Shown: positions 36,255-61,731 of the stretch, in pieces
Numbering within the stretch: position 1 is the first letter of the stretch
Layout of the letters: each line of letters starts with the position of its first letter
Source: Prescottella equi
GTDB taxonomy: Bacteria > Actinomycetota > Actinomycetes > Mycobacteriales > Mycobacteriaceae
DNA length: 64,000 bases
Direction of reading: 5' to 3'
Assembly: GCF_002094305.1 (NCBI RefSeq)
Contig: NZ_LWTX01000003.1
Coordinates: 62,001 to 126,000, forward strand
The notes under the pieces: model-generated
What the model saw: only the letters and a program-made list of their open reading frames with translations
Databases searched by the model: none
Told to the model about the DNA's origin: nothing
Program-made: the position numbers and the translations under genes

Positions 36255-36277
36255 CGACACCTCCAAGCAACATCTGA

Positions 36278-45439: not shown

Positions 45440-45455
45440 CCTAGCACTTGCTTGG
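45440..45455. promoter_or_regulatory. KstR2-like box upstream of Old-Yellow-Enzyme gene
   Basis: CCTAGCACTTGCTTGG, 32 bases before the ATG at 45487, is an imperfect palindrome of the same form as the boxes at 59822 and 61156. Confidence 0.62.
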
Positions 45456-45486
45456 TTTACGACGATCCCGAAAAGGCGCAGACGAC

Positions 45487-46626
45487 ATGACCTCTTCATC
45501 TCCCCTGTTCCAGCCGCTGAAGGTGCGTTCGCTCGAACTCGCGAATCGCATCGTCATGTCGCCGATGACGCGCTCCTACTCGATCGACGGCGTCCCCGGT
45601 GACGACGTCGCCGGCTACTACCGCCGCCGCGCCGAGGGCGGGACCGGGCTGATCGTCACCGAGGGTGTCGCGATCGACCACGAGACCGCGGTCGACAACC
45701 CGCGCGTGCCGCGCCTGTTCGGCGAGGAGTCGCTCGCAGGCTGGCGCAAGGTCGTCGACGGCGTGCACGAAGCTGGCGGCAAGATCATTCCGCAGCTGTG
45801 GCACGTCGGCCCGCTGTGGGGCGCGATGAGCAAGGTCGACCCGGCGGTCAAGCCGATGCGCCCGTCCGGCGAGTGGGGTCCGCTCGGCACGACGTCGTAC
45901 CCGGAGTCGTACACCTCGTGGGTCCAGGAGCCCACCGAGGCAATGACCGAGCAGGACATCCAGGACGTCATCGCGGCGTTCGCCCGCGCGGCCCGCAACG
46001 CGATCGACGTCGGCTTCGACGGCATCGCCCTGCACGGCGGCCACGGCTACCTGCTCGACTCGTTCCTGTGGGAAGGCACCAACAAGCGTGACGACGAGTG
46101 GGGCGGCGACCTCGAGCGCCGTACCCGCTTCCCCGTCGCCGTGGTGAAGGCGATTCGCGCCGAGATCGGCGAGGACTACCCGATCTTCTACCGCTTCTCG
46201 CAGCACAAGCAGCAGAACTACACCGCGCGCATCGCAGAGACGCCCGACAAACTGAAGGTGATCCTCGGTGCGCTCGCCGACGCCGGGGTCGACGTCTTCG
46301 ACGCCAGCATCCGCCGCTTCGACATCCCCGCGTTCGAGGGTAGCGACGTGTCCTTGGCCGGCTGGGCCAAGAAGGTCACCGGCGCGATCACGATGGCCGT
46401 CGGCAGCGTCGGCATCGGGAAGTCGCTGCGCGACAGCCGCATCGACGGTTCGGCGCCGGTCGTCGACAACATCCCCGAACTCGAGAAGCGCATCGGTGGC
46501 GGCGAGTTCGACCTGATCGCGATCGGCCGTCTGCACCTGGCCGACCCGGCGCTGGCCTCGCGCCTGCGCGCCGGTGAGCCGCTGCCCGAGTTCGTCCGCG
46601 ACGTCCACGAGGGCTCGCTGACGTAA
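45487..46626 (+). CDS. Old Yellow Enzyme-type NADH:flavin oxidoreductase
   Basis: 379 residues, one FMN TIM barrel. LFQPLKVRSLELANRIVMSP at the start, GGKIIPQLWHVGPLWGAMSK, GFDGIALHGGHGYLLDSFLW (active-site loop), NKRDDEWGGDLERRTRFPVA and FDLIAIGRLHLADPALASRL. About two thirds identical by eye to the protein at 61728. OYE enzymes reduce activated C=C bonds such as enones; steroid 4-en-3-one or dienone reduction is plausible. It lacks the second NAD(P)-binding domain of BaiCD/BaiH. Confidence 0.85.
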   Translation: MTSSSPLFQPLKVRSLELANRIVMSPMTRSYSIDGVPGDDVAGYYRRRAEGGTGLIVTEGVAIDHETAVDNPRVPRLFGEESLAGWRKVVDGVHEAGGKIIPQLWHVGPLWGAMSKVDPAVKPMRPSGEWGPLGTTSYPESYTSWVQEPTEAMTEQDIQDVIAAFARAARNAIDVGFDGIALHGGHGYLLDSFLWEGTNKRDDEWGGDLERRTRFPVAVVKAIRAEIGEDYPIFYRFSQHKQQNYTARIAETPDKLKVILGALADAGVDVFDASIRRFDIPAFEGSDVSLAGWAKKVTGAITMAVGSVGIGKSLRDSRIDGSAPVVDNIPELEKRIGGGEFDLIAIGRLHLADPALASRLRAGEPLPEFVRDVHEGSLT

Positions 46627-46648
46627 CCTCCAGCTCGACATGATCCAC

Positions 46649-46689
46649 CCGGTCGCCGCAACACCTCCGCGAGGCGTTGCGGCGACCGG
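46649..46689 (+). terminator. Terminator of the 45487 OYE gene
   Basis: CCGGTCGCCGCAAC and GTTGCGGCGACCGG pair exactly over 14 bp, 23 bases after the stop. Confidence 0.75.
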
Positions 46690-46739
46690 TTCGTCTGTGC
46701 GGCAACAGCCACGCAGCCCGGAATCGAAGGAACCGATCC

Positions 46740-47180
46740 TTGACGCAGTACGACGACGCCGACTGGCACTACGGCGGCGACTTCCCCGACGACCTCCCCC
46801 AGGCTGCGGCCGGCACCCACATCGGCATGTTCGTGGCATGGTGCCTGCTCACCGGCTTCGCGAGCGAAGGGGTCGAGGACCGACTCGAACCGCTCGAGAC
46901 GCGGGAGACGACCCCCGGCGCCTTCCTCATGAAGGTGCTCGACGAGCGGTTCGCCAGCGACGACCTCACCGCCGACGGCAACGCGTTCGCCGTCGCGTAC
47001 TACGCGGGCCGCAGCGACGACTCCCGCTACCTCGACGACTACTGCGACGAGTTCGACACCACCGCGGAAGAGATCTACCGGGTGGAAGACACCTGGGAGA
47101 CCTACGACCGGATCGCGGACCGGATCGGCGATCGCTTCCACGCATGGCTGGACAGCGGGCGGCCGCAGTTCGTCGCGTAG
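46740..47180 (+). CDS. Conserved acidic hypothetical protein
   Basis: 146 residues from TTG 46740, chosen because GAAGGAACC sits at the right distance and the protein begins TQYDDADWHYGGDFPDDLPQ. Acidic and soluble, with HIGMFVAWCLLTGFASEGVE (one amphipathic or hydrophobic helix) and AYYAGRSDDSRYLDDYCDEF. It resembles DUF7832-type proteins found beside toxins or cell-wall genes, but I do not recognise a function. Confidence 0.7.
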   Translation: MTQYDDADWHYGGDFPDDLPQAAAGTHIGMFVAWCLLTGFASEGVEDRLEPLETRETTPGAFLMKVLDERFASDDLTADGNAFAVAYYAGRSDDSRYLDDYCDEFDTTAEEIYRVEDTWETYDRIADRIGDRFHAWLDSGRPQFVA

Positions 47181-47412
47181 GGCTCCGACCCGCAACGGTC
47201 GGCGAGCCGAGTCCTCGGTGCGACGTCCTCAGTGCGACTCCGCGGGCACCTGATGTCCGGGGGCCGTACTGGCTGTGCCGCTCGGGCCGTGGGTCGAGGC
47301 CCACCGAAAGAAGCCCGTGATGATCGCTGCCGACGTCGCCCGGTGTGCGGTACCGCCGGCCAAGCCGGGCGGCGTGAACTCCGACGCTGGCGTGACCCGC
47401 ACCCCCCGGTGG

Positions 47413-47440
47413 CCGGCACCCCCTTCCAAGGGGGTGTCGG
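47413..47440 (-). terminator. Hairpin behind the 13E12/HNH gene
   Basis: CCGGCACCCCCTT and AAGGGGGTGTCGG pair over 13 bp with one G-U and a CC turn, nine bases after the stop. The rest of 47181-47412 holds nothing I can name. Confidence 0.6.
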
Positions 47441-47448
47441 CAGCAGCG

Positions 47449-48747
47449 TCATGCGGCGTGTGGGCCCGCCCGGTTGTGGGCGGGGACGGGTTTCTTGAAC
47501 GGGTCGACGGTGCTCGGTGGGGTGAACCACGGGTGCCGGTCGGCGCCGATTCTCACGCCCCAGTGGCTGTGATGCAGTAGCTGGTGGTGGTAGCGGCAGA
47601 GTAGGACGAGGTTGTCGAGGTCGGTGGGTCCGCCGTCTGCCCAGTGCTTTACGTGGTGGCCTTCGCAGTGGGCGGGTGGTGTGCCGCAGCCGGGGAAGGC
47701 GCAGCCGTGGTCGCGGGCGATCAGGGCGCGGCGCTGTTTCTTCGACACGGTTCTGCTGGTGCGGCCCAAGTTCAGGGGCACGCCATCGTCCATGACGATG
47801 GGGGTGAGGTGACAGTCGCAGGCCAGTCGCCGAGCGGTTGCAATGGAGAGCGGTCCCATGTGGGGCATGCGTGCGATGTCCTTGTCGCCGAACAGGTCCG
47901 ACCCTTCGTTCGGATGCGTCCACTCGTGAGCCGACTCGCTGCGGGCGAGATCGCTGGCGTTCACGTGCAGTGACAGGTGTGGCCGCTCCCCGCCCTCGAT
48001 CGGGGCGTCGCCGGAGTCGAGGTGGCGGCGCAGAATCTCGGCGAACGCGTCCGCCCGCTGCCGTGCCGGGGTGAGTTTCTCGGCCGGGTCGTCGACCGGA
48101 TTCCTCGGTTTGGTCAGCGCGGACAGTGCGGTCAGGAGCATCTCGCCGGTGACGGCGTCGAGGTCACCCTTGACCGAGACCCGTCCGTTCAGGGTTTTCG
48201 AGGCGTGGAATTCGTTGCGTTCGGTGTCTTCGCTGGGTGGGAGTTCGTCGGATTCGAAGATCCGCTCGAGCCGGGAGATGCAGGTGCGGACGGTCGTGGT
48301 GGTCGCGGCGGGACCGGACGCGGCGTCCAGCAACACTTTCCGGCACGAACCAAGCGCTTCGTTCGGCATGCCGCGCGGCGGGGTCTCGCAGAACTTCCCG
48401 ATCAACGCCGCGTGCTCGGCGGAAATATCGCCGGCGTTGAAGGCGTCGGCGATCTCGGGCTGCCGGCTCAGCATCCGGCCCAACGCGAGGATCCGTGCTG
48501 CGGCCGGCACTTCCAGCAATGTGTTCGCGGCCAGCCACTGCTTGACGCTGCGGAAGCCGAGGGTGTCGAATGAGACTGCGCGCTCGTCGATCTCGGCGAC
48601 GGTGGCTGCGCGTAGTGCTTCGAGTTGTTCGATCGCGTGGCAGATGTCGAGGCCGGTCTGCACCAGCAGGATTTCTGGCAGCGTGTGCACGTCTTCTGGT
48701 CGCGGCGCGGCGACCGTGACCAGCGTATTGAGTCCCCCCGGATTCAT
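47449..48747 (-). CDS. 13E12-repeat family protein (DUF222 plus HNH endonuclease)
   Basis: 432 residues. N-terminal DUF222 region (ALRAATVAEIDERAVSFDTL, SVKQWLAANTLLEVPAAARI) and a C-terminal HNH nuclease: HGCAFPGCGTPPAHCEGHHV, HWADGGPTDLDNLVLLCRYH, with zinc Cys pairs and HH catalytic core. 13E12 genes are numerous in mycolata genomes; some are mobile-element-like and several mycobacterial members are under LexA control. An SOS box overlaps the promoter here, in line with that. Confidence 0.88.
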   Translation of the reverse strand: MNPGGLNTLVTVAAPRPEDVHTLPEILLVQTGLDICHAIEQLEALRAATVAEIDERAVSFDTLGFRSVKQWLAANTLLEVPAAARILALGRMLSRQPEIADAFNAGDISAEHAALIGKFCETPPRGMPNEALGSCRKVLLDAASGPAATTTTVRTCISRLERIFESDELPPSEDTERNEFHASKTLNGRVSVKGDLDAVTGEMLLTALSALTKPRNPVDDPAEKLTPARQRADAFAEILRRHLDSGDAPIEGGERPHLSLHVNASDLARSESAHEWTHPNEGSDLFGDKDIARMPHMGPLSIATARRLACDCHLTPIVMDDGVPLNLGRTSRTVSKKQRRALIARDHGCAFPGCGTPPAHCEGHHVKHWADGGPTDLDNLVLLCRYHHQLLHHSHWGVRIGADRHPWFTPPSTVDPFKKPVPAHNRAGPHAA

Positions 48748-48756
48748 GACACGAGC

Positions 48757-49455
48757 TTAGTTCGAACTAGTGTTCGAGTCAAGACCTGTCCCGTTCGTCA
48801 GACTTTCCGGAGAGCATCCGGAAGGAGCTTGCGGCGGCGGGAATCGCTTCGCGTGTTGAGGATTCCAGTCGCGGGTGACTGCGGACAAGATCAACCATGG
48901 CTCGATCACCAGATTGATCGCGATATGCGCGATGACGGCAGGTAGGAGTGCGCGATCCGATAGCAGATATACGGCCGCCAATCCTGCCCCCAGGCATGTT
49001 GTCGAGACAACGACCGGGATCGCTATGGCCCATTCTCGACCGAGAAGAACCCAAGCGCCGTGGGCAACGCCGAATGCCAGTGCAGATGCGCCGATCTGGC
49101 CGACCGCTCCGATCCCGTTATCGGCGAGTGCATCCATCACCATTCTGCGGAAGATGACCTCTTCGATTGCGCTCGACGTGATGGCCACCCACACGCCGAG
49201 CGCCTTCAGTGGCGAGATCTCGGTGACGTGTTCCCGGACGAACGGCACGGACCACAGCGTGTACGAGATGTAGCCAACTGCCACGAGGACGGCCCCCATC
49301 CACCCCACGGGTACGGCCAGACGATCGCCGACGAGCCCAACCTGTTCGGCCAGGACGGATGCGGACCCAGCGATGAGCCAGAGGGCGAGTGGAGCCGACG
49401 TCGCAATTGCGAACGCGAACAGAACGATTGCCGTGTAGCGGCGCGCTTGATGCAT
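48757..49455 (-). CDS. CPBP-family intramembrane (CAAX-type) protease
   Basis: 232 residues from ATG 49455 behind GGAGG. Five or six hydrophobic segments, with the ABI/CPBP motifs ITSSAIEEVIFRRMVMDALA (EExxxR) and ALAFGVAHGAWVLLG (His), plus PAVIAHIAINLVIEPWLI (second His). Such proteases process membrane substrates, prenyl proteins or bacteriocin-related factors. The C-terminal tail is hydrophilic and its coding end overlaps the SOS box of the 13E12 gene. Divergent from the TetR gene at 49517. Confidence 0.82.
   Translation of the reverse strand: MHQARRYTAIVLFAFAIATSAPLALWLIAGSASVLAEQVGLVGDRLAVPVGWMGAVLVAVGYISYTLWSVPFVREHVTEISPLKALGVWVAITSSAIEEVIFRRMVMDALADNGIGAVGQIGASALAFGVAHGAWVLLGREWAIAIPVVVSTTCLGAGLAAVYLLSDRALLPAVIAHIAINLVIEPWLILSAVTRDWNPQHAKRFPPPQAPSGCSPESLTNGTGLDSNTSSN
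48762..48777. promoter_or_regulatory. LexA SOS box
   Basis: TCGAACTAGTGTTCGA matches the actinobacterial SOS box TCGAACnnnnGTTCGA exactly and begins 15 bases before the 13E12/HNH start. It lies within the end of the upstream CPBP gene. Confidence 0.85.
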
Positions 49456-49516
49456 GACCACCTCCTATTTCGCACGACTGTACTATTAAATCTGAACGCC
49501 TGACCGAGGAGAGGTA

Positions 49517-50083
49517 ATGCCAAAGGTTGTCGACCCGCAAGCACGTCGGGACGCGCTGAGTCGAGCACTGTGGAAGGTCGTGCAGCGCGATGGGATAGGT
49601 GCGGTCTCCGTCAGATCGGTTGCTGCCGAAGCCAATTGCTCACCGTCTGCGTTGCGCCACTACTTCCCCAACTCCGAGGACATGCTCGCCGAGGCGCTGT
49701 CACTCGCCAGGGCACAGCAACGGCGCCGAATCGACTCGATGGTGGTCAGCGCGACGCCCCACCAACACGTGAAGCAGCTATGGAGGGAGGCGTTACCGCT
49801 CACCGAGGAATCACGCCTCGAGGCCCAGGTTTGGCTGGCAGTGCAGGTCGCGATCAAGACCACGCGGGTTGCTGAGGTCCTGGACTCGATCGACGCTGAA
49901 CTCGATCACCTGTGCGAGTGGACCGCTACCGTCCTCGCCCCTGCTTCGGCGCCAGCCGTGACCGGTGCGGAGATACGCGCCTTCACAGATGGGCTGACGA
50001 TGAACGCGGTACTTCGACCACGCACGTTCAGCTTCGACCAAGTGGCTGTTCTGTTCGATTCGTACCTTGCGCGCCTGCAGTAG
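49517..50083 (+). CDS. TetR-family regulator
   Basis: 188 residues. N-terminal helix-turn-helix SVRSVAAEANCSPSALRHYF with PNSEDMLAEALSLA; C-terminal dimer domain typical of the PfmR/BetI-like group (LTEESRLEAQVWLAVQVAIK). Divergent from the CPBP protease with only 61 bases between starts, so it probably controls itself and the protease. ATG 49517 behind GAGAGG. Confidence 0.82.
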   Translation: MPKVVDPQARRDALSRALWKVVQRDGIGAVSVRSVAAEANCSPSALRHYFPNSEDMLAEALSLARAQQRRRIDSMVVSATPHQHVKQLWREALPLTEESRLEAQVWLAVQVAIKTTRVAEVLDSIDAELDHLCEWTATVLAPASAPAVTGAEIRAFTDGLTMNAVLRPRTFSFDQVAVLFDSYLARLQ

Positions 50084-50104
50084 GTCGGTGCTCGACCCAC
50101 CTGC

Positions 50105-50129
50105 CGGGGTTGCCCTCGGTGCAACCCCG
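50105..50129. terminator. Hairpin between TetR and RNase HI genes
   Basis: CGGGGTTGC and GCAACCCCG (9 bp, exact) around a seven-base loop in a convergent intergenic region. Confidence 0.6.
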
Positions 50130-50202
50130 ATCGTCCGCGACAACAAGACAGCTTCTCGACGCAAGACACTCGGATCACGCCCGTCCGCCCGAGCGGATGC
50201 CT

Positions 50203-50757
50203 TCAGAACAGCGTGAGCTCCGGCTCCGGCGCCCTCACCGGCGCGGATGCCGGGGTAACCGCGGCCACGGGACGTGGAGGTACCTCCCGCGGACCGAGCC
50301 CGGCCCACGGGCGAGCCTTCTCCGGCGTCGACGCGACGGCACGCGCAGCCTCACCCGCCAGTTTGTCCGCGATCTCGTTGAAGTGGTTGCCGACGTGTCC
50401 GCGCACCCAGCGGAAGCGGACCGGTCCGGATCGTTCGGTGATCGCGCGGTCGATGTCCTGCACCAGTTCGAGGTTCTTGACCGGTCCGCCCGACGCGGTC
50501 TTCCACCCCTTGCGCTTCCATCCGGGGAGCCACTCGGACGCGCACTTGATAGCGTACTGCGAGTCGGATTCGATGAGCAGCGGCTCGGGGCCGGGGTGCG
50601 CGACGATCGCCTCCACCAGCGCCCACAGTTCGGCGATCTGGTTGGTGCCGGACACCGCTCCGCCCGACCGGCTCGGACCCTCGTGATCGACCCACGCCCA
50701 CCCGATGGCGCCACCGGGATTCTTCAGACACGAACCGTCGGTACTCACGATGATCAT
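50203..50757 (-). CDS. rnhA: Ribonuclease HI
   Basis: 184 residues. The four acidic catalytic residues are visible: Asp in MIIVSTDGSCLKNPGGAIGW, Glu in NQIAELWALVEAI, Asp in LLIESDSQYAIKCASEWLPG and Asp in GNHFNEIADKLAGEAAR, with the RGHVGN basic region. Degrades RNA in RNA:DNA hybrids. A C-terminal Pro-rich extension of about 40 residues (PEKARPWAGLGPREVPPRPV) lies outside the fold. Start ATG 50757. Confidence 0.9.
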   Translation of the reverse strand: MIIVSTDGSCLKNPGGAIGWAWVDHEGPSRSGGAVSGTNQIAELWALVEAIVAHPGPEPLLIESDSQYAIKCASEWLPGWKRKGWKTASGGPVKNLELVQDIDRAITERSGPVRFRWVRGHVGNHFNEIADKLAGEAARAVASTPEKARPWAGLGPREVPPRPVAAVTPASAPVRAPEPELTLF

Positions 50758-50830
50758 GGCTTCGGACAATACGTTGCCGCCCCGACGGCCGCCGGACAGG
50801 TCCCGGCCGGGCGACGATAGGCTGCCGGTG

Positions 50831-51763
50831 ATGACCGATACGGCCTCCGAAGTGCGGTTCGAGCTGTCGACGCGACGTCCCGTGGACCTTGCGCCGACGC
50901 TGTCGCCGCTGCGGCGCGGACGCTTCGACCCGTGCCATCGGCGCGAGCCGGACGGCAGTGTGTGGCGCACGTCGCTACTGCCGTCGGGCGCGGTCACCTA
51001 CCGGCTGCGGCAGCAGGGGCCGAGTGTGGTGGAGGCCCGCGCGTGGGGACCTGGTGCGGAGGAGTTGGAGACGTACCTGCCGGGTCTCGTCGGGGAGGAC
51101 GACGCCGGCCGGTCCGACGACTTCGCGCCCGCCCACCCGAAGCTGGCCGAGGCGCACCGCCGCTTTCCGAACCTGCGGATCGTACGCACCGGCAGGGTGA
51201 TGGAGGCACTGGTGCCGGCGATCCTCGAGCAGCGAGTACACGGCGTCGCTGCGCAGGCGTCGTGGCGGCGGCTCGTGACGAAGTTCGGGGCGCCGGCACC
51301 GGGACCCGCTCCCGACGGCATGCGGGTGCCGCCCGGTGCCGAGGTGTGGCGGCGGGTTCCGTCGTGGGAGTTCCACCACGCCAACGTCGACCCGCAGCGC
51401 GCGAAGACGATCGTCGCGTGCGCCCGCGTCGCCGATCGCCTCGAAGAGACCGTCGGCATGGACCGACTCGACGCCTACCGGCGTCTGCGCGCCGTCCCCG
51501 GCGTCGGGCTGTGGACCGCGGCGGAAGTCTCCCAGCGCGCCCTCGGCGACGCCGACGCACTCTCCGTCGGCGACTTCCACCTCGCGTCGGTCGTCGGCTG
51601 GACCCTCCTGGGCCGGCCCCTCGACGACGCGGGCATGGTCGAGTACCTCGCCGACCTCCGCCCCCACCGCTACCGCGCGATCCGCCTGCTCGAGATCAGT
51701 GGCCAGGCCCGCAAACCCAAGTTCGGGCCGCGGACACCGATCGTCGACCACACCTGGCACTGA
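50831..51763 (+). CDS. AlkA-like 3-methyladenine DNA glycosylase
   Basis: 310 residues. HhH-GPD fold: hairpin RAVPGVGLWTAAEVSQRALG followed by the catalytic Asp in DALSVGDFHLASVVGWTLLG. N-terminal half has LAEAHRRFPNLRIVRTGRVM and ILEQRVHGVAAQASWRRL, typical of this family. Base-excision repair enzyme, divergent from rnhA. ATG 50831, 73 bases from the rnhA start. Confidence 0.83.
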   Translation: MTDTASEVRFELSTRRPVDLAPTLSPLRRGRFDPCHRREPDGSVWRTSLLPSGAVTYRLRQQGPSVVEARAWGPGAEELETYLPGLVGEDDAGRSDDFAPAHPKLAEAHRRFPNLRIVRTGRVMEALVPAILEQRVHGVAAQASWRRLVTKFGAPAPGPAPDGMRVPPGAEVWRRVPSWEFHHANVDPQRAKTIVACARVADRLEETVGMDRLDAYRRLRAVPGVGLWTAAEVSQRALGDADALSVGDFHLASVVGWTLLGRPLDDAGMVEYLADLRPHRYRAIRLLEISGQARKPKFGPRTPIVDHTWH

Positions 51764-51802
51764 ACCTGGGCGCGTTCCGCCGCTGCGGCGCCCCGACGCC
51801 GC

Positions 51803-52606
51803 TCAGCGGCCGGTGACCAGTTTCATCACGTCCGGGTAGTTGGAGACCTGCCAGCCGCCGTCGACCATGAGGCTGGCGCCGGTGATGTAGGTGGCGTCGT
51901 CGCTCGCCAGGTACAGGCACGGCGCTGCGATCTCCTCGGGAGTCGCGGGGCGGCCCATCGGGATCCGCTCGACGAACCCGTTCAGCAGCGGCTCCCAGCC
52001 GGTGACGCCCGCGACGAGTGGGGTGTCGACGAGTCCCGGTAGCACCGCGTTGACGCGGATCCCGTGCTGCGACAGTTCGAGGGCGGCGTTCTTGCTGAAC
52101 ATCTCGACCCCGGCCTTGCCCGTCACGTACGGGCTTCCGCCCATCATCGGCATGCGGGCGTTGAACGACGCGATGTTCACGATCGCGCCGCCCCGCTCGT
52201 TCGCCACCATGTGCCGGGCCTCGTGTTTCGTGGACAGGAACACGCCCTTCTGCACGAGGTCGACGGTGAAGTCCCAGTCGGACTCCTCGAGATCGAGGAT
52301 CATGCCGCCGCGTGCGGCACCGGCGACGTTGAACGCCAGATCCAGCGCACCGAAGCGCTCCACCGCGACGGCGACTGCTGCCGCCACCTGGTCCTCGGCG
52401 GTGACGTCGGCGGTCGCGCCGACGAACTTCTCGCCGAGTTCCTTCTCCAGGACCGCGAGCGCGTCGGTGGCGATGTCGATCCCGACGACGGATGCACCCT
52501 CGCCGATCAGCCGCTTCGCCACGGCCGCACCGATTCCCGATGCCGCACCGGTCACCACCGCGACGCGGCCGGCGAAACGTTCGCCGTCGAACGTGTTGTC
52601 AGACAT
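51803..52606 (-). CDS. FabG-like short-chain dehydrogenase
   Basis: 267 residues: VAVVTGAASGIGAAVAKRLI, ALDLAFNVAGAARGGMILDL (NVAG for NNAG), IVNIASFNARMPMMGGSPYV with Ser/Tyr, KAGVEMFSKNAALELSQHGI, and ATYITGASLMVDGGWQVSNY. ATG 52606 overlaps the end of the alcohol dehydrogenase gene by eight bases, placing it last in an LLM-ADH-SDR operon. Confidence 0.8.
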   Translation of the reverse strand: MSDNTFDGERFAGRVAVVTGAASGIGAAVAKRLIGEGASVVGIDIATDALAVLEKELGEKFVGATADVTAEDQVAAAVAVAVERFGALDLAFNVAGAARGGMILDLEESDWDFTVDLVQKGVFLSTKHEARHMVANERGGAIVNIASFNARMPMMGGSPYVTGKAGVEMFSKNAALELSQHGIRVNAVLPGLVDTPLVAGVTGWEPLLNGFVERIPMGRPATPEEIAAPCLYLASDDATYITGASLMVDGGWQVSNYPDVMKLVTGR

Positions 52607-54805: not shown

Positions 54806-54851
54806 GCGTGTACTCCTCGGGAAATCGCTGAAACACAGTCGTCCCCGACGC

Positions 54852-54865
54852 TAGAATTCGTTCCG
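54852..54865. promoter_or_regulatory. KstR-like box between LLM operon and LuxR gene
   Basis: TAGAATTCGTTCCG fits the KstR form except for the last base, 47 bases upstream of the LLM start. Confidence 0.45.
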
Positions 54866-54935
54866 CCCGGGCGACAGTGCACTTTGGTGGACAGTTCCGC
54901 ACACAGCGCCTCGGCCAGGCCGGGTACTCGGATGG

Positions 54936-55709
54936 GTGGTGAACTGTTTGACCGAGGTCTCCTTGCGGGCAACCGATTACGAGCGCGTCTTCGCGGTGCT
55001 CGATCGCTGCGTGGACGTGCGGACGGTGCCGGAGTTCCGCACCCGGATCGCGGCGGCGATGACCGACGTCTTCCCGGTGCGGGTCGCGACGTGCTTCGTC
55101 GGCGACAGCTACGACAGTCAGTTCACCGATCCCGACGCCGCACTCGTCGGCGGACACGGGTGGGAGCGCAATCGTCCGGTCTACCAGGAGAAGTGGGCCC
55201 GGCACGACATCTTCGCGACCCCCGAGGCCCGTCGCCGGCTCGAACACAACCGCGTCGCGTCGCTCGCCGATCTACAGGACCTGCCCGCCGGTGCGGCCGC
55301 CTACGTGCGGGACTATCTGGGCGCCTGGGGCCTGCGCTCGGTCAGCGCGATGCACCTGGATCTGCCCGGTCGGGCGCGCGCTCTCGTGGGTCTCTTCGAC
55401 GGCGACGACAGTGCGCTCGGCACCCGCGACCTCGCAACGCTGCGCCTGTTGGCCCGTCACCTGTCCGCTCTGACCCGCAATCTCGAGACGGCACCGCGAC
55501 GCGACCCGTACGCCGCACTCACCGAACGTCAGCGTGACGTCGCGAGACTGGTTGCGGACGGTATGAGCAACGCGGCCATCGCGCGGCGACTCATGCTTGC
55601 CGAGGACACCGTGAAGAAGTACGTCAGCCGGATCCTCGCGGCCACCGGATGCGCGTCCCGCACCCAGTTGGCCCTCGAGGTTCAGTCCTTCGGGCCGCCC
55701 GCCACGTAG
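54936..55709 (+). CDS. LuxR-family response regulator-like protein
   Basis: 257 residues from GTG 54936 (GTG 54939 possible). A roughly 180-residue N-terminal domain without receiver motifs and then the helix-turn-helix LTERQRDVARLVADGMSNAA, IARRLMLAEDTVKKYVSRIL. Probably an effector-binding activator. Its 3-prime end overlaps the convergent SDR by 28 bases. Likely controls the LLM-ADH-SDR operon opposite to it. Confidence 0.8.
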   Translation: MVNCLTEVSLRATDYERVFAVLDRCVDVRTVPEFRTRIAAAMTDVFPVRVATCFVGDSYDSQFTDPDAALVGGHGWERNRPVYQEKWARHDIFATPEARRRLEHNRVASLADLQDLPAGAAAYVRDYLGAWGLRSVSAMHLDLPGRARALVGLFDGDDSALGTRDLATLRLLARHLSALTRNLETAPRRDPYAALTERQRDVARLVADGMSNAAIARRLMLAEDTVKKYVSRILAATGCASRTQLALEVQSFGPPAT

Positions 55710-56443
55710 ATCACCTGCCCCGACACGAACCCCGCCCCCTCGCCGATCAGGAACGACGCGGTGTGCGCGATGTCGTCGGGCACACCGACGCGGCGCACCG
55801 GCGTCTCGGCGGCGGCAGCGGCCATGAAGTCGTCGAACGGCACGCCGAGGCGCTCCGCCGTCGCGGCCGTCATCTCGGTCGCGATGAAACCGGGGGCGAT
55901 GGCGTTGGCGGTGACGCCGAACGGACCCAGCTCGAGCGCGAGAGTCTTCGTCAGCCCCTGCATGCCAGCCTTCGCGGCCGAGTAGTTCACCTGGCCGCGA
56001 TTGCCGAGCGCCGAGATGCTCGACAGGTTGACGATGCGGCCCCACTTCTGCTCGACCATGTACTTCTGCGCGGCGCGAGTGAGTAGGAAGGCCCCGCGCA
56101 GGTGCACGTTCATCACGGCGTCCCAGTCGTCCACGCTCATCTTGAACAGCAGGTTGTCCCGGGTGATGCCGGCGTTGTTCACGACGACGGTGGGGGCACC
56201 CAGTTCGTTCGCGATCCTGTCGACGGCGGCGGCGACCGACGCCTCGTCCGAGACGTCGGCGCCCACCGCGAGTGCGCGCCCGCCGGCACTCTCGATGGCG
56301 GAGACCGTCTCGGCACAGGAGGATTCGTCGAGGTCGAGGACCGCGACGGCGAGGCCGTCCGACGCGAGGCGCTTCGCGATCGCGGCGCCGATTCCGCGTG
56401 CCGCACCCGAGACCACTGCCACCCGCTGGTTGCCGTCCGTCAT
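55682..56443 (-). CDS. FabG-type 3-oxoacyl reductase / SDR
   Basis: 253 residues, the clearest FabG-like SDR here: VAVVSGAARGIGAAIAKRLA, PTVVVNNAGITRDNLLFKMS, RIVNLSSISALGNRGQVNYS, AAKAGMQGLTKTLALELGPF, and GFVSGQVIYVAGGPKD at the end. Could act in fatty acid, polyester or steroid side-chain metabolism. ATG 56443. Confidence 0.82.
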   Translation of the reverse strand: MTDGNQRVAVVSGAARGIGAAIAKRLASDGLAVAVLDLDESSCAETVSAIESAGGRALAVGADVSDEASVAAAVDRIANELGAPTVVVNNAGITRDNLLFKMSVDDWDAVMNVHLRGAFLLTRAAQKYMVEQKWGRIVNLSSISALGNRGQVNYSAAKAGMQGLTKTLALELGPFGVTANAIAPGFIATEMTAATAERLGVPFDDFMAAAAAETPVRRVGVPDDIAHTASFLIGEGAGFVSGQVIYVAGGPKD

Positions 56444-56502
56444 GTGTCGTTCCCTCCCACTGCCCGGTGTCGTCCGTCGGTGAGGCTACGCGGGCGACGG
56501 CG

Positions 56503-56952
56503 TCAGGACAGCGAGACCGGGGAGATGGTGGCGACGATCTGGTCGATCGCTCCGTTCTCGAAGGCGAAGGTCTCGACGATTTCGACGGTCATCAGTCGCT
56601 GCGGGCCGAAGCCGGCGTCGAGCAGGTAGCGGGTGTGGACGGTGTCGCCGGCCTCGCTCATCACGAGGTCCCGGACGCCCTGGATGACGCGGTACTGGAC
56701 GCCGTGGTTCAGGTCGTTCGTGAGCTGCGGGCCGTTGAAGCCGGTCTGCAGTCCGGCCTCGACACGGGTGGCGTCGGGGGTGAACACGACGGCACTCGCG
56801 TCGTGGCTGACGAGCGCGTCGATGTAGGCGCGGGCCATCGCCTGGTTCGGGGAGTCGGCCGGGTTCGGCGCGGCCGAGGCAGCGGTGGGTGCCACCACGG
56901 CCATGGTGGCCGCGGCGAGCAGGGACAGGGTCGACGTCTTGGCGATACGCAT
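56503..56952 (-). CDS. Exported SnoaL/NTF2-like protein
   Basis: 149 residues with a Sec signal (MRIAKTSTLSLLAAATMAVV then APTAASAAP, cleavage near 28). The mature domain is SnoaL-type: NQAMARAYIDALVSHDASAV, FTPDATRVEAGLQTGFNG, and VETFAFENGAIDQIVATISP. Extracytoplasmic location makes a steroid-CoA role unlikely; function unknown. Confidence 0.72.
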   Translation of the reverse strand: MRIAKTSTLSLLAAATMAVVAPTAASAAPNPADSPNQAMARAYIDALVSHDASAVVFTPDATRVEAGLQTGFNGPQLTNDLNHGVQYRVIQGVRDLVMSEAGDTVHTRYLLDAGFGPQRLMTVEIVETFAFENGAIDQIVATISPVSLS

Positions 56953-57039
56953 GCCGCATCGTAGCTAGAACACGTTGCAGCACGGGCGGAAAACGCGCGT
57001 GCCCGGCGATGTCGCGTCATCGGGGGTAGACAAGAAATC

Positions 57040-57591
57040 ATGGGACGATCCACCTCCGACGACGACCGGAAGCCATCCGAGCCACGGCGCGTGCGTTTCC
57101 CGCGCCGCTGGAGTCAGATCGACGAGACCCGCCGCGGCATCGTGCTGGCCTGGCTCGCGTTCACGGTCACCTTCGGCGGCGCCCGCCTGGTGACGTGGCT
57201 GATCCAGGTCGACTCCCGGGACTTCGGCGACGTCTCCGCCGGCGGCACGCACCTGCACCACTACCTGTGGGGCATCCTGCTGCTGGCCGGCGTCGCGATC
57301 TTCGGCATGGTCGACCGCAGTCCGCGCGCACGCACGTGGATGGGTCTGGCACTGGGCATTGCGCTCGCACTCATCGTCGACGAGGCCGCACTGCTCATCA
57401 CTCTGCGGGACGTGTACTGGCAGACCGAGGGCTGGCCGAGCGTCGCACTCGGCGTGGTGCTGATCGGTCTCGTCGGCACCGGGCTCGTGGTCACCCGCAG
57501 TGGCGCCACGATCGAGGAGCCCGACGACCCCTCCGAATCCCAATCCGAATCCGCCGACGAATCCCACTCCGGGGACCGAAGTCCCGACTAG
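57040..57591 (+). CDS. Small integral membrane protein
   Basis: 183 residues. Four hydrophobic segments: about 32-54 (GIVLAWLAFTVTFGGARLVT), 72-90 (LHHYLWGILLLAGVAIFGMV), 100-120 (GLALGIALALIVDEAALLIT) and 132-150 (SVALGVVLIGLVGTGLVVTR). The HLHHY motif and DEAA inside membrane stretches could bind metal. Charged Arg-rich N-terminus, Ser/Glu/Asp-rich tail. Family not recognised. Confidence 0.68.
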   Translation: MGRSTSDDDRKPSEPRRVRFPRRWSQIDETRRGIVLAWLAFTVTFGGARLVTWLIQVDSRDFGDVSAGGTHLHHYLWGILLLAGVAIFGMVDRSPRARTWMGLALGIALALIVDEAALLITLRDVYWQTEGWPSVALGVVLIGLVGTGLVVTRSGATIEEPDDPSESQSESADESHSGDRSPD

Positions 57592-57761
57592 CGAGGACTC
57601 CCGACTCCCCCACACGGGGTACCTCCCACCGGGACGGACCGGCCCGGTCGGCCCCTTCCCGGCCGGACGCCGACGAACACTCCCGGTGGGCGAGACGCCG
57701 TGCTGTTACCGCCGCCACAGGTCGTCTAGCTTCGTGACATCGGCAACGACAGGAGTTACCC

Positions 57762-59198
57762 ATGAGTACGGACACCGCCGCCATCACGCGCCTCCCCCAG
57801 ATCCTCGAGGCTCAGAAACGTGCTGCGTCCGAACAGGGAACGCCGTCGGCCGACGAGCGCCGCGCCCGCCTGCAGAAGATGATCGACCTGCTGGTCCGCT
57901 ACCACAAGCCGCTCACCGAGGCGATCGACGCGGACTTCGGTGGGCGCCTCGTCGCGTTCTCGATCATGAACGACATCCTCGGAGCCATCACGTCGCTCAA
58001 GCACACCCGGGACTCCCTCGAGTCGTGGATGGAAGACGAGGAGCGGCCACCGTACCCGCCGTACGACCAACTGGGCGCGAAGGCGTACATCCAGTACCAA
58101 CCCAAGGGCTCGGTCGGCATCATCGGCACGTGGAACGCGCCGCTGTTCACACTGCTCAGCCCGCTGGCGTGCGCGCTCGGTGCCGGCAATCGCGCGATCC
58201 TCAAGCCGTCCGAGATCGTGCCGCAGACTGCGCAGGTGCTCGCCGACGCCGTGGCAGAGATGTTCGATCCCACCGAGGTCGCGGTCGTGACCGGCGGCCC
58301 CGAAGTCGCCGACGCGTTCACGTCGCTGCCGTTCGACCACCTCGTCTTCACCGGCAGCACCGAGGTCGGCAAGCTCGTCATGGCCAACGCCGCCAAGAAC
58401 CTCGTCCCGGTCACCCTGGAACTGGGTGGCAAGTCGCCGACGATCGTCGGGCGCAGCGCCGACCTCGACGACGCAGCCAACAAGATCGCAATCGCGAAGG
58501 CCACCAACTCCGGCCAGATCTGCGTCTCCCCCGACGTGGTGTACGTCCCCCGCGAGGAACTCGACACGTTCGTCGGCGCGCTCGAGAAGTCGTACGCCTC
58601 GCTCCTGCCGTCCATCACCGACAACCCGGACGTCGTCGCTGTGGTGAGCGATCGTCACCTGGCCCGGGTGGAGGCTCTGGTCGCCGACGCCCGCGACCGC
58701 GGAGCACTGATCGTCGCCACCCCGGTGGACGAGAGCTCGCCCGTCGACGGCGACCGCAAGCGTCCGCTGCGATTGGTGGTCTCGCCGCCCGCCGAGTCGA
58801 AGATCATGCAGGAAGAGATCTTCGGCCCCGCGATCATCCTGCTTCCGTACGACCAGACCGAAGAGGTCATCGCGGACATCAACAGCAGGCCGAAGCCGCT
58901 GGCGCTGTACTACTTCGGCACCGACGCCGCCGAGCAGGAGGCAGTTCTCACTCGCACGTTCTCGGGCGGGGTGACGGTCAACGACATCATGATGCATCCC
59001 GGCATGCACGACGCCCCGTTCGGCGGTGTCGGCGCGTCCGGAATGGGCCACTACCACGGGCGGGAGGGGTTTCTCGAATTCAGCCATGCCCGTACGGTTT
59101 TCGAGGCGCCCGAACACGACCCGCGAGCCGAATGGGGCACGCTGCCACCGTACGGTGAGGGCTTCCTCGCCGCGATGGAGGCGCAGGTCACCCCGTAG
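57762..59198 (+). CDS. Aldehyde dehydrogenase (ALDH3/coniferyl-type)
   Basis: 478 residues. IIGTWNAPLFTLLSPLACAL (Asn motif), LVFTGSTEVGKLVMANAAKN (NAD binding), VPVTLELGGKSPTIVGRSAD (Glu), NSGQICVSPDVVYVPREEL with the catalytic Cys, and MQEEIFGPAIILLPYDQTEE. Similar in shape to coniferyl or fatty aldehyde dehydrogenases. Followed by a hairpin. Could oxidise a steroid side-chain aldehyde; not demonstrable from sequence. Confidence 0.83.
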   Translation: MSTDTAAITRLPQILEAQKRAASEQGTPSADERRARLQKMIDLLVRYHKPLTEAIDADFGGRLVAFSIMNDILGAITSLKHTRDSLESWMEDEERPPYPPYDQLGAKAYIQYQPKGSVGIIGTWNAPLFTLLSPLACALGAGNRAILKPSEIVPQTAQVLADAVAEMFDPTEVAVVTGGPEVADAFTSLPFDHLVFTGSTEVGKLVMANAAKNLVPVTLELGGKSPTIVGRSADLDDAANKIAIAKATNSGQICVSPDVVYVPREELDTFVGALEKSYASLLPSITDNPDVVAVVSDRHLARVEALVADARDRGALIVATPVDESSPVDGDRKRPLRLVVSPPAESKIMQEEIFGPAIILLPYDQTEEVIADINSRPKPLALYYFGTDAAEQEAVLTRTFSGGVTVNDIMMHPGMHDAPFGGVGASGMGHYHGREGFLEFSHARTVFEAPEHDPRAEWGTLPPYGEGFLAAMEAQVTP

Positions 59199-59227
59199 CG
59201 GCGACATTGCCGATCAGTGAGATGTCT

Positions 59228-59253
59228 CCCCGCCGCCCTCTCGGGCGGCGGGG
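59228..59253 (+). terminator. GC hairpin between ALDH and SnoaL genes
   Basis: CCCCGCCGCCC-TCTC-GGGCGGCGGGG, an exact 11-bp stem starting 30 bases after the ALDH stop and ending 12 bases before the next ATG. Terminator, or a structure bordering that gene's ribosome site. Confidence 0.65.
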
Positions 59254-59265
59254 AGAATGTGTTTC

Positions 59266-59718
59266 ATGAGCAGTGAACTCGTAGACCGCCTTGCCCTCAC
59301 CGACCTCGTCGCGCAGTACGCGATCGCCGTCGACCACCGCGACGAACCGGCGCTGACCGTGCTCTTCGCCGACGACGCGGAACTGGTCCAGCCGGCCGGC
59401 CTGGTCCGACGCGGCCGGAACGCCACGCTGACCGGCAACGTGGGCATCGCCGCGGGGGTCCTCGAGGCCGTCGCGCATCTCCATTCCACCCGGCACGTCG
59501 TCAGCCAGCAGATCGTCGACCTCTCGGGCGACACTGCCCGCGGCCAGGTCTACGGCGAGGCCCACCACGTGTATGCCACCGGGGGCGGCCATCGCGACTA
59601 CGTCGTGGCGATGCGCTACCAGGACGAGTACCGCCGCGCGGACGGCGCGTGGCGCATCTCCCGGCGGGAACTCTCGGTCGACTTCACCTACGACGTCGAG
59701 GTCGAGCTCCTGAAGTGA
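59266..59718 (+). CDS. SnoaL/NTF2-like protein
   Basis: 150 residues: LVDRLALTDLVAQYAIAVDH, TVLFADDAELVQPAGLVRRG, LHSTRHVVSQQIVDLSGD and YQDEYRRADGAWRISRRELS. Same SnoaL_4 class as the proteins at 9427 and 37521. GGGAGA ribosome site. Ends 103 bases before the KstR2-like box. Confidence 0.75.
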   Translation: MSSELVDRLALTDLVAQYAIAVDHRDEPALTVLFADDAELVQPAGLVRRGRNATLTGNVGIAAGVLEAVAHLHSTRHVVSQQIVDLSGDTARGQVYGEAHHVYATGGGHRDYVVAMRYQDEYRRADGAWRISRRELSVDFTYDVEVELLK

Positions 59719-59821
59719 GAGCGCCCGCCGTCCCACGCAATCGTCGATCGAAGCAGTTCAGGAGATATTTGGCTGAGCGGAACAGGCCTTCCCCGACGGG
59801 CCGTCCGATCCTATAGTTCAG

Positions 59822-59837
59822 TCAAGCGATTGCTTGG
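59822..59837. promoter_or_regulatory. KstR2-like box at the KstR2-like regulator gene
   Basis: TCAAGCGATTGCTTGG, 24 bases before the regulator ATG; core CAAGCGATTGCTTG is a near-perfect palindrome. Suggests autoregulation. Confidence 0.65.
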
Positions 59838-59860
59838 GAGCTCGAGGGAGGGGCTGGACC

Positions 59861-60499
59861 ATGACGGAGTGCTCGGCGCGACGCCGCGAGATCCTCGACG
59901 CGGCGGCCGACCTGTTCGCCCGCAAAGGCGTGGCCGCGACGACCATTCGGGAGATCGCCGACCGCGTGGGCGTCGTGTCGGGAGCGCTGTACCACCATTT
60001 TCCGTCCAAGCTCGCCATCGTGGACGAGCTCGTGGTGGGCTATCTCGAAGAACTGCAACGGCGGTACCGGGCACTCGACGCACTGACACTGGACCCGCGC
60101 GCACGGCTGCAGGCCGTCGTCGACACGTCGTTGGAACTGGCGCACGAGCGTCCACACGCAACCGCCGTTTACCAGGACGAACTCCCCCACCTGCACAACC
60201 GCTCGCAGCGGACCCGCGCGAGCGACCTCGCGGACGAGATCCAGCAGGTGTGGCTCGACACGATCGAGGACGGCAAGCGGCGCGGCACCTTCCGAAACGA
60301 TCTGCCGGCAGGAGTGTTCCATCGCTTCATCCGCGACTGCGTGTGGCTGTCCACGCGGTGGCACAGCGCCGACGACGCCTACTCCACCGATCGTCTCGCC
60401 GCGGACTGTGTGTCGATCTTCCTCGACGGATTCGCCGTCGATGCCGGCTGCTCCCATCACGATTCGGTGCACCACACTCCCGCTCCGGCGGCGGCGTGA
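59861..60499 (+). CDS. KstR2-like TetR repressor
   Basis: 212 residues from ATG 59861. The DNA-binding region REILDAAADLFARKGVAATT, IREIADRVGVVSGALYHHFP and the ligand-domain stretch AVYQDELPHLHNRSQ, QVWLDTIEDGKRRGTFRNDL, VFHRFIRDCVWLSTRW follow KstR2 (Rv3557c), the repressor of the HIP/CD-ring genes that senses HIP-CoA. KstR2 sites contain CAAGnnCTTG; here the boxes have CAAG and CTTG six bases apart, so this is a paralogue with an altered site. Probable targets are itself and the two OYE units. Confidence 0.82.
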   Translation: MTECSARRREILDAAADLFARKGVAATTIREIADRVGVVSGALYHHFPSKLAIVDELVVGYLEELQRRYRALDALTLDPRARLQAVVDTSLELAHERPHATAVYQDELPHLHNRSQRTRASDLADEIQQVWLDTIEDGKRRGTFRNDLPAGVFHRFIRDCVWLSTRWHSADDAYSTDRLAADCVSIFLDGFAVDAGCSHHDSVHHTPAPAAA

Positions 60500-60619
60500 A
60501 GTCTCCGACGCCCGCGCAACCGCTGGGCGGGAAGTCCGGGCCCCGGGGCCACAACCGCGGTTAGGCTCCGGGCCGATCGAAAGCTCGCTCTTCCACACCC
60601 CGAACACGGAGGTCGAATC

Positions 60620-61135
60620 ATGGGCACGCCCGCCACGGACAACCAGTCACCGTCGCTGACACTCACCCCGGCTGAACAGGCGCTCGCCGTCGAGGAGATC
60701 GAACGGGTCTTCGCCAGGCGCCTGCGGATCATGGACACCAAGCAGTGGGACCTCTACGGCTCGGTGCACACGGAGGACGTCGTCAGCGAGTCCTGGGGTG
60801 CCGGCAGCAGAGTCACCGGGCGCGAGACCCTCGCCGACGCGATTCGAAACACCCTGGACGGCAAGGTGTTCGTGACAAGTGTGCATCACGGCCACACCCC
60901 CGAGATCGTCCTCACCTCGGACACCACCGCCACCGGCATCTGGGCCATGGAGGACGAACTGTGGTGGACCAACGTCGATGTCGAGGAACACCTCCACGGC
61001 TACGGCCACTACCACGAGGAATACCGCAAGGTGGAGGGCAAGTGGCTGATCAGCTACCGCACCCTCACCCGACTGCGCGAAACCGCGACCCCGAACTTCT
61101 ACGACTACCGCGGAGCCGATACGCCTCGACGCTAG
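60620..61135 (+). CDS. SnoaL-type protein, paralogue one
   Basis: 171 residues. LAVEEIERVFARRLRIMDTK, QWDLYGSVHTEDVVSESWGA, TSVHHGHTPEIVLTSDTTAT, GIWAMEDELWWTNVDVEEHL, HGYGHYHEEYRKVEGKWLIS, YRTLTRLRETATPNFYDY. About three quarters identical by eye to the next protein at 61207, and the same type as the second domain at 25441. Conserved His in VHHGHTPE and the HGYGHYHEEY block are candidates for catalysis. KSI/dehydratase-like fold. Confidence 0.8.
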   Translation: MGTPATDNQSPSLTLTPAEQALAVEEIERVFARRLRIMDTKQWDLYGSVHTEDVVSESWGAGSRVTGRETLADAIRNTLDGKVFVTSVHHGHTPEIVLTSDTTATGIWAMEDELWWTNVDVEEHLHGYGHYHEEYRKVEGKWLISYRTLTRLRETATPNFYDYRGADTPRR

Positions 61136-61155
61136 CTATGCTGTGTTCCAGGTCA

Positions 61156-61171
61156 CCAAACAATTGCTTGG
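61156..61171. promoter_or_regulatory. KstR2-like box upstream of SnoaL-OYE operon
   Basis: CCAAACAATTGCTTGG, 35 bases before the ATG at 61207; the best copy of the shared palindrome. It lies after the first SnoaL gene, so the second SnoaL and OYE form their own unit. Confidence 0.65.
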
Positions 61172-61206: not shown

Positions 61207-61731
61207 ATGGGTGCGCCCACCACTGAACTGACGATGACCGCGGCCGAGCAGGTGCTCGCCATCGAGGAGATCAAGCGCGTGTTCGCGATGCGTCTGCGCG
61301 TCATGGACACCAAGCAGTGGGACCTCTACGGGCCCCTGCACACCGAGGATGTCGTCACCGAGACGTGGGCCGGGTTGCCCGGAGACAAGCAGCCCAAGTC
61401 CGACGGCCAGGCCAACCGGGCATCCGGACGCGAGCACCTGACCAACTCGATCCGGGGCATGCTCGGATCCTCGACGCACGTGACCACGGCGCACCACGGC
61501 CACACGCCCGAGATCGTCCTCACCTCGGACACCACCGCCACCGGCATCTGGGCCATGGAGGACGAACTGTGGTGGACCAACGGCGATGTCGAGGAACACC
61601 TCCACGGTTACGGCCACTACCACGAGGAGTACCGCAAGGTGGAGGGCAAGTGGCTGATCAGCTACCGCAAGCTCACCCGCCTCCGCGAAACCCACACGCC
61701 CAACTTCTTCGACTACATGGGAGCCCTGTGA
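61207..61731 (+). CDS. SnoaL-type protein, paralogue two
   Basis: 174 residues. VLAIEEIKRVFAMRLRVMDT, KQWDLYGPLHTEDVVTETWA, then an insertion of about 10 residues (LPGDKQPKSDGQANRASGRE) relative to the 60620 protein, and the near-identical C-terminal half from HHGHTPEIVLTSDTTATGIW to YMGAL. Recent duplication is likely because the C-terminal DNA is almost unchanged. Coupled to the OYE gene by a GTGA overlap, so the two probably act in one conversion. Confidence 0.8.
   Translation: MGAPTTELTMTAAEQVLAIEEIKRVFAMRLRVMDTKQWDLYGPLHTEDVVTETWAGLPGDKQPKSDGQANRASGREHLTNSIRGMLGSSTHVTTAHHGHTPEIVLTSDTTATGIWAMEDELWWTNGDVEEHLHGYGHYHEEYRKVEGKWLISYRKLTRLRETHTPNFFDYMGAL

Follow-up and report, generated by a model that had tools for sequence, protein, structure and literature searches.

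KstR2-type operators at an Old Yellow Enzyme locus point to a probable extension of the KstR2 regulon in Prescottella equi

Three palindromes precede Old Yellow Enzyme, TetR and SnoaL-like genes

We analyzed a 64,000-nucleotide stretch of Prescottella equi DNA (contig NZ_LWTX01000003.1 of assembly GCF_002094305.1, positions 62,001 to 126,000; this whole stretch is called the window here), which encodes two Old Yellow Enzyme (OYE) family proteins, several SnoaL-like proteins, and a TetR-family protein related to the steroid regulator KstR2. Its genome of 5.2 Mb is G000 in a comparison set of 14 genomes of the genus (G000 to G013), and the window is C3:62001-126000 in that numbering. Three palindromic sites lie in front of these genes:

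45440..45455, no strand assigned: operator 1, CCTAGCACTTGCTTGG, a KstR2-type site 31 bp 5' of the OYE1 start, with a like site in every OYE1-bearing genome of the genus (10 of 10)
45487..46626, + strand: OYE1, Old Yellow Enzyme family (PF00724, by Pfam), 379 aa
59822..59837, no strand assigned: operator 2, TCAAGCGATTGCTTGG, a KstR2-type site 23 bp 5' of the local TetR gene
59861..60499, + strand: local TetR, a KstR2-like paralogue (by PDB matches and tree), 212 aa, recognition helix GVVSGALYHHF
60620..61135, + strand: SnoaL-like protein b (SnoaL_4, by Pfam)
61156..61171, no strand assigned: operator 3, CCAAACAATTGCTTGG, a KstR2-type site 35 bp 5' of SnoaL c
61207..61731, + strand: SnoaL-like protein c (by Pfam, with PDB matches to BaiE)
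61734..62876, + strand: OYE2, Old Yellow Enzyme family (by Pfam), 69% identical to OYE1

An earlier note on this DNA had placed palindromes at 45440, 59822 and 61156, each 24-35 bases before a start codon. We found all three 16-mers at these positions, with ATG codons downstream at 45487, 59861 and 61207; the distances given hold for operators 1 and 3 and miss operator 2 by a base. Genes identified with Pfam bear out that the sites precede OYE1, the KstR2-like TetR gene, and the SnoaL c-OYE2 pair. Each site fits CCAAGC-N4-GCTTGG at 11 of 12 positions, and the exact form CAAG-n6-CTTG occurs in just one of the three.

The three palindromes are confirmed as real, correctly placed and above chance. 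A search of the window for CCAAGCANTTGCTTGG with up to 3 mismatches returned 10 matches (5 places on both strands, two of these places not being the three operators) whereas 100 shuffles averaged 0.39 and never exceeded 3. Against this, a reversed-pattern control exceeded the motif in forward counts in our genome when mismatches were allowed (83 vs 15 at one mismatch, 34 vs 21 at two, 130 vs 50 at three), probably through base composition, namely the TTCG/CGAA richness of the reversed pattern. Across the 14 genomes, exact CCAAGCRNNTGCTTGG occurred 0-3 times per genome and strand and the reversed-pattern control 0-1 times, with at least one motif match in every genome. Scanning 5.2 Mb of order-3 Markov DNA modelled on the window with the KstR2 matrix described below gave 3 matches of at least 16 bits.

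The sites have the form of KstR2 operators

The true KstR2 is encoded outside the window, at C2:741592-742164. This protein matches the Mycobacterium tuberculosis KstR2 structures with E values of 4.2e-78 and 5.6e-78 and PDB 2ibd, which we take to be the Rhodococcus jostii protein, with an E value of 7.3e-107. Its gene is adjoined by genes for a FadD3-family ligase (719.6 bits, cut-off 657), a thiolase and an acyl-CoA dehydrogenase; the labels fadA6, fadE30, echA20 and ipdAB used for this region are presumptive, assigned by eye from the translations and from gene order. A KstR2-type site stands in the kstR2 promoter itself in 13 of the 13 genomes where we found the gene, and the KstR2 recognition helix is identical in all 13.

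For comparison we used the published KstR2 site list, which has nine rows, seven of them distinct (Kendall et al, 2010; PMC3068626). Our KstR2 matrix was built from the seven distinct sites, which contain six distinct 16-mers. Operators 1, 2 and 3 score 24.5, 20.5 and 25.2 with this matrix, and the genome's own echA20, kstR2 and fadE30-fadD3 promoters score 24.8, 23.2 and 23.8. The latter three scores are not independent, since two of the three sites are identical to a training 16-mer; each window site lies 1-2 letters from its nearest training 16-mer. Published Mycobacterium smegmatis KstR2 sites lie 22-82 bp before the regulated starts (PMC3068626).

The earlier note had held that KstR2 uses CAAGnnCTTG and that the half sites in the window are spaced differently, as for another regulator. 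We reject the shifted spacing: all nine published rows fit CCAAGC-N4-GCTTGG at 10-12 of 12 positions in the same 16-mer register as the window sites and the genome's own KstR2 promoters, and the site at R. jostii ro04652/04653 holds exact CCAAGCGATTGCTTGG (PMC3068626). Because the register was selected for giving the closest fit to CCAAGC-N4-GCTTGG, it is no blind discovery. The short consensus is indeed absent from all three window sites, but it is also absent from two of the three canonical KstR2 sites of the same genome and from R. jostii ro04652/04653. In counts, the strict published consensus, AnCAAGnnCTTGnT, is held by 8 of 9 published rows, by one of the three own canonical sites and by none of the three window sites. 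Because the genome's own canonical sites mostly do without the short consensus too, the wider register is the usual form of KstR2 sites here and does not mark another regulator. On this likeness, we assign the three palindromes as predicted operators of the KstR2 type (CCAAGC-N4-GCTTGG).

KstR2-type sites occur at further promoters

A scan of the genome found 15 places within one mismatch of CCAAGC-N4-GCTTGG, of which ten score 19.8-25.2 and five 9.3-12.8; because the scan used a pattern instead of the matrix, it may have passed over weaker sites. The ten high-scoring sites are the three canonical KstR2 promoters, the three window sites, aceA, two short-chain dehydrogenase/reductase (SDR) promoters, and the promoter of a transporter binding-protein gene (by Pfam). 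The small, private three-promoter regulon that had been proposed for the window does not survive this result, given a true KstR2 encoded elsewhere and ten sites scoring at least 19.8.

The site 5' of aceA (22.8, at C5:262277, L019:9278) precedes a gene for isocitrate lyase (768 bits, cut-off 562), and like sites precede aceA in G011 (20.1) and G013 (18.1), at L228 and L227. KstR2 is the only KstR2-like TetR that we found in G011 and G013 at E 1e-30, and the presence of the site in these two genomes suggests that aceA is a KstR2 target. Within one mismatch, G011 has 8 places and G013 has 7. In both, a score of at least 18 is reached by the three canonical promoters, aceA and an SDR gene, and the other 3 and 2 places score at most 14.6.

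Several other sites were seen. One (19.8) lies beside SDR genes at C3:60109 (L024:13109), 1.9 kb left of the window, and the SDR orthologue in G011 and G013 is preceded by a like site (18.5). At C2:517437 (L021:9438), a site with letters identical to operator 1 precedes an SDR gene; a KstR2-like TetR gene whose own promoter carries a different motif lies about 8 kb away, at C2:508773. Three like sites (20.7, 17.5 and 17.5) fall within 175 bp at C6:99165, 99303 and 99323 (L025:9166-9339), 5' of a transporter periplasmic binding protein gene, and a further one (18.9) at C5:280060 stands before a similar transporter binding-protein gene that adjoins a KstR2-like TetR gene.

The OYE1 site is kept without the local TetR

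OYE1 is present in 10 of the 14 genomes, and we observed a like site before it in all ten. Scores are 24.5 in the window and in G009, 25.9 in G001, G003-G006, G010 and G012, and 22.2 in G002. Four of these genomes (G002, G009, G010 and G012) keep both the OYE1 neighborhood and the site without an orthologue of the local TetR: tblastn found none in their fetched OYE1 stretches, and the best genome-wide match is 43-53% identical and located elsewhere. In G010 and G012, OYE2 is lacking too and SnoaL b was not seen. The earlier idea of a single regulator for all three sites is not supported, in view of these four genomes. Across the genus, the commonest OYE1 site, CCTAGCAATTGCTTGG, and the commonest kstR2 operator, CCTAGCAATCGCTTGG, are one base apart; in the P. 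equi genome analyzed here, the two sites differ at two bases. Since the site is kept in 10 of 10 genomes including the four without the TetR, and its commonest form is one base from the kstR2 operator, OYE1 is most likely an added target of KstR2.

The local TetR is a KstR2 paralogue with two clades

The 59861 protein was correctly recognized in the earlier note as a KstR2-like TetR (PDB 2ibd, E 2.4e-48; M. tuberculosis KstR2, 4w97, E 7.8e-39) and as a paralogue, the true KstR2 being a separate protein, to which it is 39% identical. In a tree of 70 of the 71 KstR2-like TetRs, KstR2 (13 rows, support 100/100), clade A of the local TetR (98/92) and its clade B (100/99) form separate branches, and we reject 59861 as a KstR2 orthologue; the bootstrap of this tree is unsettled and several long branches meet. 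We also rejected a 51-53% identical group as orthologues of the local TetR: both co-occur in G001, G004 and G006 and part in the tree. The recognition helix of 59861, GVVSGALYHHF, compares with GILSGSLYHHF in KstR2, and among the 70 rows the ending YHHF occurs only in KstR2 and in both clades of the local TetR. The KstR2 segment YRFIRDTTW reads HRFIRDCVW in 59861, which keeps the arginine and the tryptophan that in KstR2 (Arg162 and Trp166) contact the coenzyme A thioester of 3aα-H-4α(3'-propanoate)-7aβ-methylhexahydro-1,5-indanedione (HIP-CoA). The segment has been described as a KstR2 motif at residues 158-166 (PMC13176608).

The local TetR is found in six genomes: our own, G004 (89% identical), G006 (85%), and G001, G003 and G005 (66-67%). 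Clade A comprises G000, G004 and G006 with helix GVVSGALYHHF, and clade B comprises G001, G003 and G005 with helix GVV[A/P]GALYHHF. In a species tree of the genus, two inner branches outside clade A are weakly supported (49 and 71). In G000, G004 and G006, the site at the TetR promoter scores 20.5, 16.2 and 24.8, and that at SnoaL c 25.2, 22.5 and 25.2; the G006 TetR operator agrees in every letter with the G006 site at C3:348066, by position presumably the echA20 KstR2 site. In the upstream stretches of clade B (L066, L067 and L068 for G001, G003 and G005), the same place before the TetR gene reads CCAGGCAGGTGATCGG, TCGGGCACGTGTTCGG and CCGAGCACGTGTTCGG, scoring 7.9, 5.2 and 15.0, and other palindromes precede SnoaL c in G003 and G005. 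A different recognition helix thus accompanies different operators in the sister clade. The OYE1 site stays KstR2-type in clade B (25.9 in all three genomes) while the TetR and SnoaL c operators differ, which sets OYE1 apart from the other two promoters. Among the clade B sequences upstream of SnoaL b and c, AATCAATCGATTGATT stands before SnoaL c in G005, and TCAACTGCTTGTTTGA before SnoaL b in G001 and G005; the latter is also found in G002, up to TCAACTGCTTGTTT.

G002, which has no local TetR gene, keeps an element TTTTGCTGAGCGGAACA with CCAAGCGATTGCTTG that looks like the TetR promoter and operator, together with a 25.2 site at SnoaL c. The matching place in G009 holds clade B-like sequence, as judged by eye. 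Because promoter sequence remains without the gene, the local TetR gene was probably lost at the G002 and G009 loci, and the operators persist independently of it.

Among the 70 TetRs, the KstR2 motif with at most one mismatch occurs in the protein's own promoter for KstR2 (13/13) and clade A (2/3, or 3/3 at up to two mismatches), and for none of the other 54, whose best matrix score is 15.4. Seven TetRs of our genome are KstR2-like at E 1e-30 or better. Five other groups mostly have a motif of their own, most on a hexamer-N4-hexamer plan: TTGAGC-N4-GCTCAA (11/12), TTGAAY-N4-RTTCAA (7/7), CCGAGC-N4-GCTTCG (6/10), TCAAGC-N4-GTTCGA (6/10) and an AGC-N4-GTTTG type (8/8). These counts describe and do not test, since the motifs were read off the same promoters. 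Group-specific palindromes may reflect a recognition code for the helix GxxxGxLYHxF.

A proposed extension of the KstR2 regulon

Taken together, we favor, at a probability of about 0.62, an extended KstR2 regulon in which OYE1 would be under KstR2, the paralogue would act on its own gene and on SnoaL c-OYE2, and the operator would be shared by both proteins. Binding, repression, ligand and double hold are what we infer from the sites and their distribution. KstR2 would repress OYE1, and HIP-CoA, the ligand of KstR2 (PMC8399759), would release it, as for the ring C/D genes. The 59861 paralogue would most likely repress its own expression together with that of the SnoaL c-OYE2 unit, sitting just 5' of the start codon; like sites at both promoters, as predicted operators, underlie the autoregulation claimed earlier. 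In clade A, KstR2 should also bind operators 2 and 3, since these look like KstR2 sites, and the unit would answer to two related repressors. We suggest, with less than even confidence, that clade A carries a two-key lock on SnoaL c-OYE2 and the paralogue gene, with KstR2 and the paralogue perhaps answering to different ligands, and that the clade B paralogue escaped interference through its changed helix and new operators while OYE1, under KstR2 only, kept the old site.

A number of observations weigh against this extended regulon. Published gel shifts cover the three M. tuberculosis KstR2 sites and are marked as not done in the R. jostii and M. smegmatis rows (PMC3068626); the probes all hold CAAGnnCTTG, which no window site holds. 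The KstR2-type site at the TetR promoter occurs in just 3 of the 6 genomes with the TetR (16.2 in G004), and the SnoaL c site reaches 14 bits in 4 of 10 genomes. The clade split is imperfect as well: G005 in clade B scores 15.0 at the TetR promoter, and before SnoaL b there are sites of 17.2 in G003, also clade B, and 18.1 in G009. KstR2 was not found in the G002 assembly, where we presume a gap. Finally, all 10 OYE1 genomes also carry a TetR of the C2:508773 group, which keeps that group a candidate on distribution alone.

In another reading, KstR2 would serve OYE1 and the local TetR alone would serve its own gene and SnoaL c-OYE2, with KstR2 inactive there in the cell despite the match. It fits the two clades, in which operators 2 and 3 change along with the local TetR and the OYE1 site remains KstR2-type. 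We nevertheless consider this unlikely, given the clade A scores of 16.2-25.2, the G006 TetR operator identical to the presumed echA20 site, and the retention of both kinds of site in G002 without the TetR gene. Were all three promoters plain KstR2 targets, with the local TetR binding something else, the matrix scores and the persistence of the OYE1 and G002 sites would be explained, but not why the regions upstream of TetR and SnoaL c differ in just the clade with a different local TetR helix, the KstR2 helix being constant in 13 genomes; we regard this reading as quite unlikely.

We give little credence to the earlier proposal of one autoregulated paralogue that drives exactly these units through its own site spacing. 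Three like sites near three starts, a TetR gene beside one of them, and the lack of CAAGnnCTTG in all three do fit it. The spacing claim is contradicted, however, by the same 16-mer at the genome's canonical KstR2 genes and in all published rows (PMC3068626), and the OYE1 site is independent of the TetR. Least probable is binding by an unrelated factor or another KstR2-like paralogue, for example that at C2:508773, whose group is found in all 10 OYE1 genomes. Own-promoter motifs make the other paralogues unlikely binders: those of the C2:508773 group are of the TTGAGC-N4-GCTCAA type in 11 of 12 cases and of the KstR2 type in 0 of 12, and at E 1e-30 none of the remaining groups is present in all OYE1 genomes.

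Relation to known systems

The system resembles the KstR2 regulon of mycobacteria and R. jostii in its 16-bp operator register, three canonical promoters, predicted autoregulation and TetR repressor; that regulon was described as 15 genes with three promoters near kstR2 (PMC3068626), whereas here sites are also found at OYE1, the TetR paralogue, SnoaL c-OYE2, aceA and SDR genes. Larger KstR2 regulons have been proposed before, with 29 operons carrying predicted KstR2 sites in Nocardioides simplex (PMC7807495). We found no report of KstR2 sites at OYE genes or aceA in the passages of open-licence papers that the search covered (PMC3068626, PMC13101464, PMC10398937, PMC7593942, PMC4810484, PMC13176608, PMC11667970, PMC8399759, PMC3161971 and PMC7807495). 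In gene context, the locus is like the lithocholate cluster of N. simplex, where the KstR3 orthologue KR76_18060 lies near an OYE-family gene, a baiE orthologue and kshA; the Lcin1 motif of that cluster, TCCCGGT[C/G]ACCGGGA, is unlike the window palindromes, and by this motif comparison only we rejected it as their explanation (PMC7593942). KstR3 of Mycolicibacterium neoaurum is likewise a local repressor of a small steroid operon, but its targets differ (atf1, chsH4 and chsE6), and the available text of the paper names no motif or palindrome (PMC10398937).

If the proposal is right, the KstR2 regulon of the genus is wider than the ring C/D genes: it takes in an OYE-family enzyme and, probably, isocitrate lyase, joining late steroid degradation to the consumption of its products. 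Under the two-key arrangement, the genus would show shared and escaped states and probable paralogue losses side by side. Its genomes, in which the versions of one repressor pair are variously shared, diverged or missing, would allow direct tests of interference between paralogous repressors.

OYE loci outside the genus and neighboring enzymes

Eleven OYE loci (of 80 fetched) in other Rhodococcus, Nocardia, Williamsia and Arthrobacter had no site of at least 14 bits in the fetched 7-13 kb, a sample that is no survey and in which L154 (R. triatomae) offered just 195 bp before the gene. An IclR-type gene lies at 35361-36266 of the window (- strand), and four of the eleven loci (L148, L149, L151 and L157) have 67-77% identical matches near the OYE gene. 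No KstR2-type site was seen at these four loci. The IclR-type gene may be an older regulator of the cluster.

Two further genes lie to the left of operator 2:

57762..59198, + strand: aldehyde dehydrogenase, a syntenic neighbor (by Pfam)
59257..59718, + strand: SnoaL-like protein a (SnoaL_4, by Pfam)

In the PDB, SnoaL c has sequence matches at E 0.01 to BaiE bile acid 7-alpha-dehydratases only (best E 3.4e-14), and it shares with them a block HxGHTPEI...TTATGxW...ED. OYE1 and OYE2 match the first half of the NCBIfam BaiCD model, giving a likeness to the BaiE/BaiCD pair of bile acid dehydroxylation; they differ from BaiCD in scoring far below its cut-off (172 and 181 bits vs 825), and we classify both, from their sequences, as general OYE family members. 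SnoaL c and OYE2 could form a dehydratase/ene-reductase pair acting on a steroid ring. The window also encodes a KstD-like flavin adenine dinucleotide (FAD) protein, an extradiol dioxygenase that passes the biphenyl-diol cut-off, and an HsaA-like protein that falls short of its own, and because these genes share the window, the substrate of the cluster is likely of steroid type.

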